From contig NZ_JXAL01000001.1 in assembly GCF_000829465.1 (NCBI RefSeq), positions 248,001-312,000 of the forward strand: a stretch of 64,000 bases of DNA, written 5' to 3'. The notes under the pieces were generated by a model. That model was not told the DNA's origin, did no database searches, and was given only the letters and a program-made list of their open reading frames with translations. The position numbers and the translations under genes were made by a program. Numbering within the stretch: position 1 is the first letter of the stretch; the number at the start of each line of letters is the position of its first letter. This DNA is from Cohnella kolymensis (GTDB lineage: Bacteria; Bacillota; Bacilli; Paenibacillales; Paenibacillaceae). This document shows, in pieces, positions 11,071 to 62,219 of this stretch.

Positions 11071-13341
11071 CTATTCTTTACCCAATAGCATACTGGGGCA
11101 ATCGCCCAAAATCGGTAAAATATTTCCTTTTCTAAGAAACTCCCCCATGTTGTCCGCCTCCAACGGCCGGCTGAAGAAATAACCTTGTCCGATCGTGCAG
11201 GCATTCCGGATCAAGAAGTTCACTTGCTCCTCTTTTTCGATCCCTTCCGCAATAACCGTGAAGTTCAAATTATGTCCCATATCGATAATCGTCTTCACCA
11301 TGGCGCCTTGATTGGAATGATGGATAATATCGTCAATGAAAGACTTGTCGATCTTGATTTTGTCAATCGGCAGATGCGTCAGATAGCTTAAGGATGAGTA
11401 GCCTGTTCCGAAATCGTCAATCGATAATTTCACGCCCAACTCTTTCAATTGTTTCAGGATGGATGTGGATCTTGTTATGTTCTGCATAATGCTTTCCGTA
11501 ATTTCCAGCTCGAGGTATTGCGGATCCAGCCCCGCCGCATTCAGAGCTTCCGTCACCGACTCGACGAAAAGGTCGTCATCCATCTGGCGAACCGAGATAT
11601 TGACCGCCATCTGTACGGCTGGGAACCCGGCATCCTGCCATGCTTTGTTCTGCTCGCAAGCCGTTCTCAGCACCCATTTGCCCAGCGGCAGGATCAGGCC
11701 TGTCTCCTCGGCCAGCGGAATGAATTCGCAAGGACTAACGAAGCCGTACGAAGGATGCTTCCAGCGGATCAAGGCTTCGATTCCGACAAGCTTTCCTGTA
11801 GCCAGCTCCACTTGCGGCTGATAGTATATCGTCATTTCATTCTGTTCCATTGCTTTTCTCAGGCCGTTCTCCAATTCCATCTTACGGGATGAAACGCCAA
11901 GGAGATGGGGTGTGTAGAATTGAAAATTGTTTTTGCCCCGGTCTTTGGCCAGGTACATCGCGGTGTCGGCGTTCTTGATCAGCGTGTCCTCATCCGATCC
12001 GTCCGCAGGATAGAGACTGATGCCGATGCTCGGCGTAACGAAATACTCCTGGCCGTTGACGTCGATCGGATCGGCAAATCCATCAAGCAATTGTTGTGCG
12101 ATCACAGCCGCTTTATCCTTGTCTGTATCCTGCAGGGAAATAATAAACTCGTCTCCGCCTTGCCGCGATACCAGCCCATGATGCTGAACGGTTTGCTGCA
12201 GCCGTTTGGCCACCTTTTGCAGAATCAGATCACCGACAGTGTGCCCTTTCGTATCATTGATGATCTTGAACCTGTCGAGGTCCAGGAACAGCACGGCCGC
12301 CATCTGATGCTCTCTATGCGCTAACACTTTGTTCAGATGCTGCCTGAACTTATAGCGGTTCGGAAGCTCCGTCAGCGTATCGTTATAGGCCATATATTGG
12401 ATCGTTCTCTCCGCTTTCTTGCGCTGGGTAATATCTCTGCCGACCACCTGCTGCGCGACCCGGCCTTCATACAGAATAGGCGCGGCGGACATTTCCACAT
12501 CGATAATATTGCCGTCCACACGCAGCACTTGAATCTCGAAAGTTCTCAGGGCATCTTCATCTTCCATGATCGTCGTTTCGAGAATTTTCATATCCTCAAG
12601 CGCATGGCTCGGGTAAAATTCCTGAATCGGGCGGCCGACCAATTGTTCCGGATTCGCGGCTCCGACAAGGTCCCAGCCCGCTTTATTGATATAGTCGATC
12701 TTGCCTTTACTGATCACTGCGATGATATCCGGCGACATCTCCACTAACGTGCGATAGCGGTCTTCACTTTCTTTGCGGTCCGTGATATCGAACAATACGC
12801 TCGTGAAATCAACGAAAATGCCGCTCTCATCATACGTCGGAAAGCCCCGGTCCTGGATCCAGCGCACTTCCCCGTCAGGACGTATAATCCGGTATATGCT
12901 TGTAGCCGGCTGGCCTAAAGCTAATGTCTGCATTCTCTCGGCGATAATGTGCAGATCCTCGGGGAGAATCATTTTTTTCCATAGGGTTTTATCCTTGTAG
13001 AACTCTTCCAATGAATAGCCGTAGAGCTTTTCAATGCCTGGAGTAACTAATAGAGTATCCGACAGCATATCGTGGGACCAGATTGCGACATCCAGCGTTT
13101 CGAAAATATTTTGCAGCCTCTGTCTGTTCTTCGCGAGTTCCTGCTGCGTGTTAGTCATGCCCCGCTGCATGATGAGCAGTGTCACCAAGCCAGCGAACCC
13201 CGTAGTGACCTGCAGGAACAGACGGTCTATTGTGCTAAGCGCGGACAGCGTATAGGCGGCTTCTATGATCAACTCTACTAAAATGAATAATACGAAAATA
13301 ACGATCCACTTGCGGTTTTTTAAACGTTTTATGTATTTCAT
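11071..13341 (-). CDS. Membrane PAS-PAS-GGDEF-EAL cyclic-di-GMP enzyme
   Basis: 756 residues. Two N-terminal membrane helices (about residues 12-60) are followed by two PAS/PAC domains (about 70-205 and 205-320). The diguanylate cyclase domain has an intact RQGGDEF active site. The EAL phosphodiesterase domain has EALIRWKH, ELEITES, DDFGTGYSSL and EGIEKEEQ. Both catalytic domains look competent, so the enzyme could make or degrade c-di-GMP depending on PAS input. It sits divergently from a c-di-GMP riboswitch operon at 13.6 kb. CGGGGAG lies about 12 bases before the ATG. Confidence 0.92.
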   Translation of the reverse strand: MKYIKRLKNRKWIVIFVLFILVELIIEAAYTLSALSTIDRLFLQVTTGFAGLVTLLIMQRGMTNTQQELAKNRQRLQNIFETLDVAIWSHDMLSDTLLVTPGIEKLYGYSLEEFYKDKTLWKKMILPEDLHIIAERMQTLALGQPATSIYRIIRPDGEVRWIQDRGFPTYDESGIFVDFTSVLFDITDRKESEDRYRTLVEMSPDIIAVISKGKIDYINKAGWDLVGAANPEQLVGRPIQEFYPSHALEDMKILETTIMEDEDALRTFEIQVLRVDGNIIDVEMSAAPILYEGRVAQQVVGRDITQRKKAERTIQYMAYNDTLTELPNRYKFRQHLNKVLAHREHQMAAVLFLDLDRFKIINDTKGHTVGDLILQKVAKRLQQTVQHHGLVSRQGGDEFIISLQDTDKDKAAVIAQQLLDGFADPIDVNGQEYFVTPSIGISLYPADGSDEDTLIKNADTAMYLAKDRGKNNFQFYTPHLLGVSSRKMELENGLRKAMEQNEMTIYYQPQVELATGKLVGIEALIRWKHPSYGFVSPCEFIPLAEETGLILPLGKWVLRTACEQNKAWQDAGFPAVQMAVNISVRQMDDDLFVESVTEALNAAGLDPQYLELEITESIMQNITRSTSILKQLKELGVKLSIDDFGTGYSSLSYLTHLPIDKIKIDKSFIDDIIHHSNQGAMVKTIIDMGHNLNFTVIAEGIEKEEQVNFLIRNACTIGQGYFFSRPLEADNMGEFLRKGNILPILGDCPSMLLGKE

Positions 13342-13454
13342 TCGATGTTTTCTCCCCGATGTTTGAAGTTACACTTCTTTTTATCGGCAGTATGAGCACC
13401 AACAATAACCCTTTCCGACATGCTGAAAAGGCGTTATGCAATCTCGCCTTTCAT

Positions 13455-13495
13455 ATACAGTCTAATAGACTCATACAGCATACAGTCTAATAGAC
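13455..13495. repeat. Two direct copies of a 16-base motif with a palindromic core
   Basis: ATACAGTCTAATAGAC occurs at 13455-13470 and again at 13480-13495, a 25-base period. The core GTCTA-A-TAGAC is an inverted repeat. It lies just upstream of the strong promoter at 13515 and between divergent c-di-GMP-related genes, as expected for a tandem operator. Confidence 0.6.
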
Positions 13496-13514
13496 GCATC
13501 TTTTTTACCTGTTC

Positions 13515-13544
13515 TTGACAATTTTAAGACCTGAGGACTATAAT
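13515..13544 (+). promoter_or_regulatory. SigA-type promoter of the c-di-GMP riboswitch operon
   Basis: A perfect -35 TTGACA (13515-13520), an 18-base spacer and a perfect -10 TATAAT (13539-13544). Transcription would begin near 13551, about 70 bases before the riboswitch aptamer. Confidence 0.75.
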
Positions 13545-13619
13545 CAAATCACGTTTAATATGTCGTTTTATTTAGATATTCGTCGTTTTTTGTCGATATA
13601 ATTACAATTATATACTGTT

Positions 13620-13708
13620 CGATAAAGGCAAACCCGGCGAAAGCGGGGACGCAAAGCTCCGGGCCTAAAGAATGAGGTATCATTCCACGGCGGCCGAGTT
13701 ACCGAAGA
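13620..13708 (+). ncRNA. Cyclic-di-GMP-I (GEMM-I) riboswitch aptamer
   Basis: The conserved GEMM-I signatures are present in order: AAAGGCAAACC, a GAAA tetraloop in the first hairpin, GGGACGCAAAGC, CCGGGCCTAA, and the tetraloop-receptor side ending in GAGTTACCGA. The aptamer is followed at once by a terminator hairpin (13729-13766) and then the fapA-like gene. This gives a transcriptional switch responding to c-di-GMP. Whether ligand turns expression on or off depends on pairing of 13708-13730 and was not folded here. Confidence 0.93.
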
Positions 13709-13728
13709 CAGGGGTGCTACAGCCTAAC

Positions 13729-13766
13729 AAGCCGTCCCTTGTTTTTTGGGACGGCTTTTATTTTGT
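13729..13766 (+). terminator. Riboswitch expression-platform terminator
   Basis: The stem AAGCCGTCCC / GGGACGGCTT with loop TTGTTTTTT is followed by TTATTTTGTTT. It lies between the c-di-GMP aptamer and the gene start at 13785. Confidence 0.85.
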
Positions 13767-13784
13767 TTAGAAAGGAGAATGAAC

Positions 13785-15638
13785 ATGTCTGCTTGGGTGT
13801 CGGACCATCAACTGTTGAACTTTATGAAAGAATTGGACCACCACAACAATGATCCGCTTCAACCGGTTTCCAATGCGGAATCCTCACCGAAAGGTTGGCT
13901 CCAGGTAAAGGACGGTCAAATATCGCTCGTTGATTCGGACTCCGAAGCAACCGGCGATTGGCCGACAGCAGAAGCAATGCCGCCGCTGCAACTGGTCTTA
14001 AAAGGCAAAGAAGTTAAGGGCGCACACCGGATTAAGCCGAATGACATTGTTGGCTGGAAGGCCGAGCAACAAAAACTAAGAATCGATGTTTCGTCGGACA
14101 AAATGAAAGTTCATCTGCTATTGCTGCCAGATGGCAAATTTGTATTGAAGCCGGCGGCTCAGGAGAAAACAAGCCGTCTTATTTTGCAGGCTGTGGAGGA
14201 TCAGTGTTCGCCGCTTGAGCTTCCTTCTCTTCAAACGATACTGGAAGAGATTCGCCGTCTGGGTTTGGTGAACTATGATCTCGGGGCTATCGCCGCCGAA
14301 TTGTCGCAGCCAACGTTCAATCCCGTTGTGATCGCTAGTGGAAAGAAACCTGTATACGGGAAAGACGCATCTTTGCAACTATTTTTTAGCGAGCAAATCC
14401 AGAGCACCTATGAAGAAATCGATGGGGTTATTGACTACCGCAACCATTTAAAAATTCCATCTGTCCGCAAGGGTGAGATGATTGCCCGCAAAATTCCGCT
14501 AAAAGAGAGCGAACAGGGAATCGATGTCTTCGGTCACCCCGTCGCGGCGCCACGGCCGAAAGATATTATCATATTGCCGAGGAAAGGTGTACGTGTCGCG
14601 CAAAACGAAGTATTCGCATTGAATGATGGACGGCCGAGGATTACCGGAGATGTGATCAAAATGATCGACATTTCGACAACCCACATTCTTACCGGCGATG
14701 TGGATTTGAAGACCGGCAACATTGTCTTTTCAGGCGATGTCCACATATACGGGAACGTGACGGACGGCATGATCGTGGAAGCACTCGGAGACGTATATGT
14801 GAGCGGTAATGTGTACAGGGCCACCATTTCAGCTACCGGAAGCATTTACATAAAGGGCAACACCGTCGGCAGCCAACTATACTCCGGGCATTTCGGCGTT
14901 CTGTTCAACAGATTGTACACTCATTCCACCAAGCTGAACGAACAGCTGGCCTTGTTGCGTCAAGTTGCAGAACAACTGACGCATATGGCGGACGATCGGG
15001 GACAGTCGGTTACCGATCGCCAACTTTACCAATTACTGCTGGAGAGCAAATTTCGTGACATACCGCCGCTATGTCATGCTAGTCTTGCCTGTATAGCAAA
15101 TATCCAGAGCATTGAGAATCATCTTATGAGCAGTCTCAAAAGCAAACTGCAGATGATGCTGAACAAGGCCTTTCTTGTAGAGACAGACATTAAGGCGTTT
15201 CTTCACAATTTACAGTCTGAACTGGTGACGACGATCGAAAATATACGGCTCAGCGAGGAGAGTGGTGTCGTTACCGACATCCAGCAATGCCATCTGACGG
15301 AGATTATGTCCAACGGTAACATCTTCGTTCGCAAGCAAGGGGTTCTCCAGAGCAAATTGTATTCGAAAGAAAATATCATTTTTTATCAAGATGACGCAGT
15401 GTGCAGGGGTTCGGAGCTCGAGGCAGGTAACACGATATCGGTAATGATCGTAGGCGGGGTGTCCGGTGGATGCACTTCCCTTAAGGCAGGCAAGAAAGTC
15501 ATGGCTGCTCTGATATATGAAGGCAAAGTACAGGTCGGCCCCTTCGCTCAGGAAGTTCTTGCGCCGATCGAGCAGGCTTGCTTCGAGATTAAAGAAAACC
15601 GGTTGTCGGTCGATTCAATCAATCTATCAGTGGGGTGA
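13785..15638 (+). CDS. FapA family (DUF342) polymer-forming protein
   Basis: About 617 residues. The central part has repeats such as GDVDLKTGNIVFSGDVHIYG and GDVYVSGNVYRATISATGS, the beta-helical pattern of the FapA/DUF342 and bactofilin-like superfamily. A helical coiled stretch (about residues 380-490) splits it before a C-terminal return to beta-repeats. FapA-like proteins have been linked to polymer scaffolds and to motility or surface control, but the role is not well defined. The ATG at 13785 lies 7 bases after AAAGGAG; an ATG at 13779 is too close to that site. It is the first gene behind the c-di-GMP riboswitch. Confidence 0.85.
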   Translation: MSAWVSDHQLLNFMKELDHHNNDPLQPVSNAESSPKGWLQVKDGQISLVDSDSEATGDWPTAEAMPPLQLVLKGKEVKGAHRIKPNDIVGWKAEQQKLRIDVSSDKMKVHLLLLPDGKFVLKPAAQEKTSRLILQAVEDQCSPLELPSLQTILEEIRRLGLVNYDLGAIAAELSQPTFNPVVIASGKKPVYGKDASLQLFFSEQIQSTYEEIDGVIDYRNHLKIPSVRKGEMIARKIPLKESEQGIDVFGHPVAAPRPKDIIILPRKGVRVAQNEVFALNDGRPRITGDVIKMIDISTTHILTGDVDLKTGNIVFSGDVHIYGNVTDGMIVEALGDVYVSGNVYRATISATGSIYIKGNTVGSQLYSGHFGVLFNRLYTHSTKLNEQLALLRQVAEQLTHMADDRGQSVTDRQLYQLLLESKFRDIPPLCHASLACIANIQSIENHLMSSLKSKLQMMLNKAFLVETDIKAFLHNLQSELVTTIENIRLSEESGVVTDIQQCHLTEIMSNGNIFVRKQGVLQSKLYSKENIIFYQDDAVCRGSELEAGNTISVMIVGGVSGGCTSLKAGKKVMAALIYEGKVQVGPFAQEVLAPIEQACFEIKENRLSVDSINLSVG

Positions 15639-15644
15639 AGCGAA

Positions 15645-16669
15645 GTGTTGCTAGTTGACTCTGACACAACAATGATTAGCGGCGGTCATGTCTGACAAAA
15701 AACATTTACGACCGCCGTAATCTCTTGATCTGGCCCGCCTACACGCCTGTGACGCCCAAGCTGCTGGAGCAAGCCTCAAATCTTGGCATTCGCTTAACCA
15801 AAGAAGATTGCGAATCGGCCGGTGATACCTTGATAATGGCTGCCGACGCGACATTCGACGAGCTGGACACTGTTTTTCGCGAAGCTGGCGAGACCGGCAG
15901 CGTAATGATTAAAGATCTAAGACAGACCGCCTTGCCCATGTTAATCGAGACATTGTCGACAGGCTCCCTTATCCAGTTTCTGGTCCATTTGCGGCGTAAG
16001 GACGACATAACGTTGACTCACAGCATCGGTGTCGCCGCGTTATCCATTATGCTCGGCCGGTGGCTGAACCTGTCTTCGGAAGAGTTGACCGATTTGGCCG
16101 TCGCAGCCCTCCTGCATGATATAGGGAAGCTGCGAATTGAGCGACACTTGCTTAACAAGCCGGGCAAACTCACGGTGGGGGAGTACGAAGAAATCAAAAA
16201 GCATACCGTATACGGTTATGAGATGCTGCGCAACAGCCCGGACATTAAGGAGCTTTGCGCCTTGCCGGCGCTCAGGCATCACGAACGTTTGAACGGCACC
16301 GGTTATCCCAACCGGCTCACCGGCGACGCCATCGACAAGTTCAGCAGATTGATCGCGGTGACAGACGTTTTCCATGCCATGTCTTCGAACAGATCGTACA
16401 AAGACCGGATACCGTTCTACCACGTCATTCGGGAAATGCATGCGAGCGCCTTCGGGCAATTTGACCCTGATTTCACACTCGTGTTCCTGTCTAAGATGAT
16501 GGAAACCTTGATCGGTACTGAAGTCGTGCTGAGCAACGGGAAAACCGCAGTTATCGTAGCGCTCAACCCCTCAGATCCTTTCAGACCGCTGGTTCGCGTC
16601 AACGGAAGGTTCCTCGATCTGGGCAGAGCTGAAAATCTTCATATTATGGGTTATTCCCCGGTGAACTGA
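15645..16669 (+). CDS. HD-GYP domain c-di-GMP phosphodiesterase, with an N-terminal frameshift
   Basis: The HD-GYP domain is complete: LTHSIGVAALS, LLHDIGKLRI with the HD pair, a downstream HHERLNGTGYPNRL (the GYP motif) and VTDVFHAMSSNRSYK. Members hydrolyse c-di-GMP. The proper start seems to be GTG at 15645, just after the fapA stop. It gives MLLVDSDTTMISGGHV and then hits TGA. Adding one C near 15691 joins it to LTKNIYDRRNLLIWP, the usual HD-GYP N-terminus. As given, only a TTG start at 15725 opens the domain. The 3' end overlaps the convergent enoyl-CoA hydratase gene by 19 bases. Second gene of the riboswitch operon. Confidence 0.87.
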
Positions 16670-62035: not shown

Positions 62036-62168
62036 GTTGACCCACCTAACGACTGACGAGGTTAGCTGACGGGCTCGGGATAGATGGATCCCTATGGCCC
62101 TTTCGGACCGACTCGCCCCTGAAATTTGGTTCCCCCGCTTTCCGGCTATACCGGAAATTAAGCCTTAA
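62036..62168 (-). ncRNA. ydaO/yuaA-type cyclic-di-AMP riboswitch
   Basis: On the minus strand the conserved segments appear in order: CCGG...AGCCGGAAAG, CGGGGGAACC, AGGGGCGAGTCGG, AGGGATCCATC, GAGCCCGTCAGCTAACCTCG and a closing GTTAGGTG. These match the ydaO motif. It precedes the opuA operon. High c-di-AMP would favour the terminator at 61966-61999 and lower osmolyte uptake, as known for other ydaO-controlled transporters. Ends were set by eye. Confidence 0.88.
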
Positions 62169-62219
62169 GATTAATACAAAGTATAGCAAGCAAGTTATTT
62201 AGTACCATTATTAATAGCA

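Follow-up and report, generated by a model that had tools for sequence, protein, structure and literature searches.

A c-di-GMP-I riboswitch, probably an OFF switch, ahead of a fapA–HD-GYP operon in Cohnella kolymensis

We analysed a 64,000-nucleotide (nt) stretch of the genome of Cohnella kolymensis (NZ_JXAL01000001.1, positions 248,001 to 312,000; the window), in which a cyclic di-GMP (c-di-GMP) class I riboswitch (GEMM-I) precedes the genes of a FapA (DUF342) protein and of an HD-GYP protein predicted to degrade c-di-GMP. Control of this phosphodiesterase operon by the riboswitch is well supported by the anatomy of the leader and by its conservation in relatives. The expression platform points to an OFF switch: the c-di-GMP-bound leader probably terminates fapA–HD-GYP transcription, and an OFF switch on a phosphodiesterase would mean that c-di-GMP protects itself, that is, positive feedback and not homeostasis. 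The first-pass annotation of this DNA had predicted feedback without giving its sign. The promoter, aptamer, terminator, antiterminator and gene order, together with their conservation, were computed here. The elements of the leader and operon are as follows (positions in the window):

13515-13544, + strand: sigma-70/SigA-type promoter, TTGACA-18-TATAAT, 12/12 matches to the consensus
13617-13706, + strand: c-di-GMP-I (GEMM-I, RF01051) aptamer, E 9.6e-13, model positions 1-87
13702-13714, + strand: 5' strand of the antiterminator, the terminal CCGAA of the aptamer with linker bases (CCGAAGACAGGGG), from the minimum-energy structure of the transcript ending in the terminator loop
13736-13749, + strand: 3' strand of the antiterminator, comprising the end of terminator arm 1, the loop and two bases of arm 2
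13729-13765, + strand: intrinsic terminator, arms 13729-13738 and 13748-13757, loop 13739-13747, T-rich tail, hairpin -18.5 kcal/mol
13771-13777, + strand: fapA ribosome-binding site AAAGGAG, read from the sequence, with the ATG at 13785
13785-15638, + strand: FapA (DUF342), 617 amino acids (aa), with FapA_N and a beta-solenoid interrupted by a helical region (Pfam)
15645-15695, + strand: apparent original HD-GYP start, a GTG behind GGGGTGA, 16 codons, then TGA (15693)
15725-16669, + strand: HD-GYP phosphodiesterase open reading frame (ORF), 314 aa from a TTG (Pfam HD_5 5.4e-27; PDB 4mcw 3.6e-30)

The riboswitch, the strong SigA promoter and the terminator had all been proposed in the first-pass annotation, and all three were confirmed. 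The aptamer scored 74.4 bits over the whole covariance model, compared to a gathering cut-off of 35 bits for RF01051, which rules out a chance aptamer; no other Rfam match was present at E ≤ 0.1 between 13000 and 16700. A short P1 stem is possible by eye, between CTGTTCG (13615-13621) and the 3' flank of the aptamer. The aptamer is predicted to bind c-di-GMP. In its alignment to the model, position 11, which sets selectivity, is a G, and G11/G20 (G20 in Vc2) is the position described as selective for c-di-GMP (PMC9262584). A promoter-like pair (10-12 of 12 matches) ends 63-86 nt before the aptamer in 15/22 other leaders, the remaining seven having a closer, weaker or no such pair. The terminator was read from the sequence and folded; its loop has nine bases, and the pattern scan, which allows loops of up to eight, passed it over for that reason.

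The sign of the switch was predicted from the topology of the platform, a strict model in which the aptamer end is held, linker tests and counts of CCGAA use. Terminator candidates were found in 20/23 leaders, and the counts below refer to these 20, the window included and the L087 riboswitch left out (loci other than the window are given by L numbers); the terminators of L070, L075 and L076 were set by eye, the automatic pick being a wrong hairpin inside the coding sequence. In the window, 22 nt separate the start of the terminator from the aptamer and no base is common to the two, so the bound aptamer would be unable to block the terminator directly. The antiterminator, by contrast, includes the last five bases of the aptamer, CCGAA (13702-13706), and all five are paired to the terminator arm or loop (mean probability 0.96). 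From the Rfam alignment, we take the CC of this motif to be the equivalent of C87/C92. In Cd1, a tested OFF switch, the antiterminator pairs C87, a ligand-binding site (PMC9262584), and the functional class I switches of Clostridioides difficile are all OFF (7/7; PMC6366702).

When transcripts were folded as far as the terminator loop, the antiterminator had the lowest energy in the window and in the first six relatives (6/6). It comprises at least five pairs in 18/20 leaders; at least two CCGAA bases are used in 16/20, and at least one of the first two positions of the motif in 14/20. Both antiterminator strands differ in sequence between the window and most relatives, while the geometry is kept. 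The window antiterminator gave p 0.035 against shuffled linkers and p 0.012 against random linkers. Linker shuffling gave p ≤ 0.05 in 12/20 leaders (Fisher 1.6e-7 over 13 representatives, a guide and not a probability, the leaders and relatives being related and not independent), and random linkers gave p < 0.05 in 17/20.

We propose that transcription from the SigA-type promoter would produce the leader and that the aptamer would sense c-di-GMP with RNA polymerase still on it. At low c-di-GMP, CCGAA and the next eight bases would pair with the end of terminator arm 1 and the loop; with this antiterminator formed, the terminator would be absent and fapA and the HD-GYP gene would be transcribed. 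With c-di-GMP bound, the pocket would keep CCGAA, the terminator would fold and transcription would end. The nucleotide would in this way shut off the enzyme predicted to degrade it; two negative steps in series amount to positive feedback, and the benefit might be a sharper commitment to the high-c-di-GMP state.

Several results weigh against an OFF switch with positive feedback. The terminator beats the antiterminator at equilibrium in 7/7 leaders (-0.3 to -6.2 kcal/mol), and the switch must therefore be kinetic. Folding of the alternative stems, suggested in the first-pass annotation as a check, revealed the competing antiterminator; forcing the Rfam pairs alone gave no consistent sign (free-energy shift, ddG, -1.0 to +2.3 in seven leaders), and the OFF sign (-3.2 to -7.6) was obtained only with the aptamer 3' end held as well, as assumed from the published pocket. 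An OFF switch consequently requires the competition to be kinetic and the 3' end to be kept in place, in line with the published description of Cd1. In the closest relatives, L067 and L068, the antiterminator contains a single CCGAA base and consists almost entirely of linker pairs, and the lowest-energy folds of L066 and L081 lack any antiterminator pairs. No terminator was found in 3/23 leaders, linker shuffling missed p 0.05 in 8/20, and loop shuffling reached p ≤ 0.05 in 2/20 only (0.21 in the window). The fold of Bc1 of Bacillus thuringiensis changes with c-di-GMP while downstream expression is reported to be unaltered (PMC11218506). Finally, the HD-GYP frame of the window is broken, and its motif reads NGTGYP where relatives have DGSGYP.

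The opposite sign, an ON switch, would give homeostatic negative feedback: c-di-GMP would induce the operon and the HD-GYP protein would lower c-di-GMP. Metabolite riboswitches classically serve homeostasis, and the four leaders whose antiterminator makes little or no use of CCGAA (L066-L068 and L081, 4/20) fit this sign as well. An ON layout also exists in the same genome, in the GEMM-I leader of a gene for PilB with an MshEN domain (L046, 4001-5800), where the terminator overlaps the 3' strand of the aptamer; to judge from this overlap, the pilB leader is probably an ON switch, wired opposite to the fapA leader. Class I ON switches are known elsewhere, as in Bc2 of B. thuringiensis (PMC6366702). 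However, in the fapA leader it is the antiterminator and not the terminator that shares bases with the aptamer, and the terminator starts past the aptamer in all 19 other leaders tested, 15 of which use at least two CCGAA bases. We consider an ON switch on this operon distinctly unlikely and favour the OFF switch.

The conservation of the operon was analysed in 37 loci (the window, L050-L083, L087 and L089), which are best-scoring FapA matches and no random draw: 34 came from the 96 listed family-wide matches and three (L050, L057 and L060) from a separate search, with loci extracted for at most 30 matches per search. At E ≤ 1e-60, FapA was present in 77/394 genomes of the family and 15/37 of the genus, the own genome counted in. 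The order riboswitch–fapA–HD-GYP was observed in 20/37 loci, counting the window with its broken frame (window, L051-L054, L058, L059, L061, L062, L064-L068, L070, L075, L076, L081, L082 and L087). Four loci have the riboswitch and fapA, with no HD-GYP gene in the flank examined (L069, L074, L077 and L083); seven have fapA and HD-GYP with no riboswitch match (L050, whose contig begins 331 nt before the match, L055-L057 and L071-L073); and six have fapA with neither (L060, L063, L078-L080 and L089). Many loci have about 1.5 kb of flank only, and absence of a neighbour gene in them is weak evidence. At L087 (5706-10098) the riboswitch, fapA, HD-GYP and a PAS-GGDEF gene follow one another on one strand, a synthase gene after the degrader. 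A CheY-like response regulator gene precedes fapA in L055 (Pfam) and in L056, L057 and L090 (by eye); L055-L057 had no riboswitch above the cut-off.

The domain and the catalytic and metal-binding residues agree with the earlier assignment of an HD-GYP phosphodiesterase, but not the frame, which is interrupted by the TGA at 15693. H99, H131-D132, K135, H160, H185-H186 and D214 are invariant in 14/14 aligned HD-GYP proteins, while the window has N at the near-invariant D190 of the GYP motif. The conserved part of the protein continues in another frame, in which the first ATG, GTG or TTG is the TTG at 15725. The break near codon 17 is absent from 26/26 other copies (L052, the query, included), which tblastn recovered in one piece, with alignments beginning at residue ≤ 16 of the 341-aa L052 protein; most other copies have reading frames of 333-349 aa, and intact copies thus exist in relatives. 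In the CTGA at 15692-15695, the TGA that closes the 16-codon frame overlaps a CTG lying in the frame of the HD-GYP protein, an arrangement that could allow a coupled restart. The break may be a mutation, an assembly error or a place of translation restart, for instance at this CTG. Among PDB matches, 4mcw (3.6e-30) was accompanied by the 3'3'-cyclic GMP-AMP (cGAMP) phosphodiesterase 5z7c (4.1e-30), and because of this relative the HD-GYP protein may be active on cGAMP.

Because of the frame break, the loop may be open in the window strain. The riboswitch might control FapA alone there, the HD-GYP gene being a pseudogene and feedback missing, a serious contender towards which we nevertheless lean less than half-way. 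The TGA after 16 codons, the remainder lying in another frame with no good start seen, the 26 unbroken copies elsewhere and the loss of D190 all speak for a pseudogene, as do the leaders of four relatives in which riboswitch and fapA occur without HD-GYP in the flanking DNA examined. Yet the remaining 314 codons are open and keep the catalytic residues, a draft assembly can contain an indel error, and translation could restart at the CTG overlapping the TGA (15692).

For the conserved family as a whole, positive feedback would mean that c-di-GMP terminates expression of its own HD-GYP phosphodiesterase, and that this double-negative RNA loop sustains a high-c-di-GMP (surface or pilus) state, with FapA co-repressed and the pilB leader acting the opposite way. 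We regard this combined picture as plausible, at a little short of an even chance. If true, a single RNA would provide a positive-feedback switch that would tend to lock cells in one state, which bears on the commitment of Gram-positive bacteria to the sessile state. According to a 2019 review, riboswitches of this kind rarely control c-di-GMP metabolism, and no riboswitch-controlled HD-GYP/FapA operon was described in the available portions of the open-licence literature searched (PMC9262584, PMC6366702, PMC9049102, PMC11607428, PMC6877527, PMC12452182, PMC11218506 and PMC9765702 among it).

FapA, the first product of the operon, was assigned to its family by Pfam (FapA_N, 1.5e-28, 99.8 vs. 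27 bits; FapA, 2.2e-22, 80.4 vs. 31 bits; PF03961/PF20250), in agreement with the first-pass annotation. The label "polymer-forming" used there did not hold, the Pfam name being FapA; we take that label to be the name of another family. The AlphaFold model (predicted local distance difference test, pLDDT, 78.9; predicted template modelling score, pTM, 0.49) has strand-rich parts and helices at 372-489. The best PDB match by sequence had E 0.6, and comparison with solved folds gave none at E ≤ 0.001; MinC beta-solenoids were among the weak ones (E 0.3-2.8), and no function was drawn from them. A FapA match was present in 38/40 relatives' genomes, mostly as a shorter protein of approximately 440-510 aa.

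The operon lies downstream of pilM (Pfam PilM_2) in L084 and L085, the two closest relatives (FapA 49 and 47-48% identical), where pilN/pilO-like genes are also upstream (by eye; one weak T2SSM match). Because of this position, gene context favours a pilus or surface role of FapA over a flagellar one. The link to surface structure or motility claimed earlier thus finds some support for the surface part, while flagella are backed by the family name only. These pil genes also fit a different emphasis, in which the operon would be a type IV pilus or surface-structure module whose main output is FapA, the HD-GYP protein being an accessory local phosphodiesterase. The GEMM-I leader of the gene for PilB with MshEN in the same genome, and the occurrence of riboswitch and fapA without HD-GYP, would fit it too. 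We nevertheless hold it to be rather unlikely, as an aminotransferase or unrelated genes stand upstream in other relatives and published work assigns the FapA of Vibrio to flagella assembly (PMC6877527).

Two further features lie upstream of the operon:

11071-13341, - strand: PAS-PAS-GGDEF-EAL protein, 756 aa, divergent neighbour (Pfam; aligned to a solved GGDEF-EAL protein)
13457-13470 and 13482-13495, no strand assigned: two exact copies of ACAGTCTAATAGAC, with a palindromic core, 25 bp apart

The divergent gene encodes the membrane PAS-GGDEF-EAL protein with intact motifs that had been annotated: Pfam and the structure alignment agree, the GGDEF and EAL sequences are intact, and two N-terminal membrane helices were seen by eye. 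The description of the region as a self-contained module did not survive comparison. A GGDEF-EAL gene was beside the operon in 0/18 other loci extending 3.6 kb or more upstream (L051-L060 and L084-L091), which rules it out as a conserved module member; partial homologues were present in L063, L087 and L089 only, and nine further GEMM-I riboswitches exist in the genome. The ACAGTCTAATAGAC pair between the divergent genes is a possible operator of some regulator: 0/100 shuffles reached the window count, and the genome contains only these two exact copies plus one with one mismatch. The GGDEF-EAL gene and the operon might form one divergent regulatory pair through these twin sites, given that the intergenic region between them carries both exact repeats, each with a palindromic core, and that the genome has no third exact one. 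The 0/18 adjacency stands against such a pair, as does the fact that no regulator was identified for the ACAGTCTAATAGAC sites, and we judge it improbable.

The genome contains ten GEMM-I aptamers. Besides fapA, the genes following these leaders include those for PilB with its MshEN domain, a PilZ protein, proteins with signal-like starts, a histidine kinase (its gene preceded by a short ORF, by eye) and a DUF192 protein, the last encoded upstream of Flp-pilus genes. In 3/10 leaders (L043, L047 and L048; for L049 a separate alignment was used) an A stands in place of G at the selectivity position, and these leaders may sense another dinucleotide or both. Those of L047 (1240-1324) and L048 (6001-6086) are similar and are followed by a similar short sequence, and neither precedes a long co-directional ORF; the L048 copy, next to transposase-like ORFs, looks truncated (by eye). 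The window also contains a cyclic di-AMP (ydaO/yuaA) riboswitch at 62036-62174 on the - strand (78.6 bits).

In the trinuclear HD-GYP enzyme, a glutamate is presumably a metal ligand; in contrast, this position is I in the window protein, Y in 11/13 and V in 2/13 relatives, so a two-metal site seems more likely in the window HD-GYP family. The window protein resembles PDB 4mcw, 4mdz and 4me4 in its HD domain and metal-binding residues. The window FapA belongs to the same family as the FapA of Vibrio, but has 617 aa and is encoded outside flagellar genes. The aptamer family is common to the class I ON switches (Bc2, PMC6366702, and probably L046), whereas the overlap of terminator and aptamer in L046 gives the reverse logic. 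A further close comparison is with Cd1 (Cdi-1-3, the C. difficile flgB leader; PMC9262584). Cd1 controls flagellar genes and not a FapA and HD-GYP operon, and no P1 was detected in it, while a short P1 is possible in the window leader. Both leaders nevertheless combine a GEMM-I aptamer, a terminator built of downstream strands and an antiterminator that consumes a ligand-contacting C at the 3' end of the aptamer.

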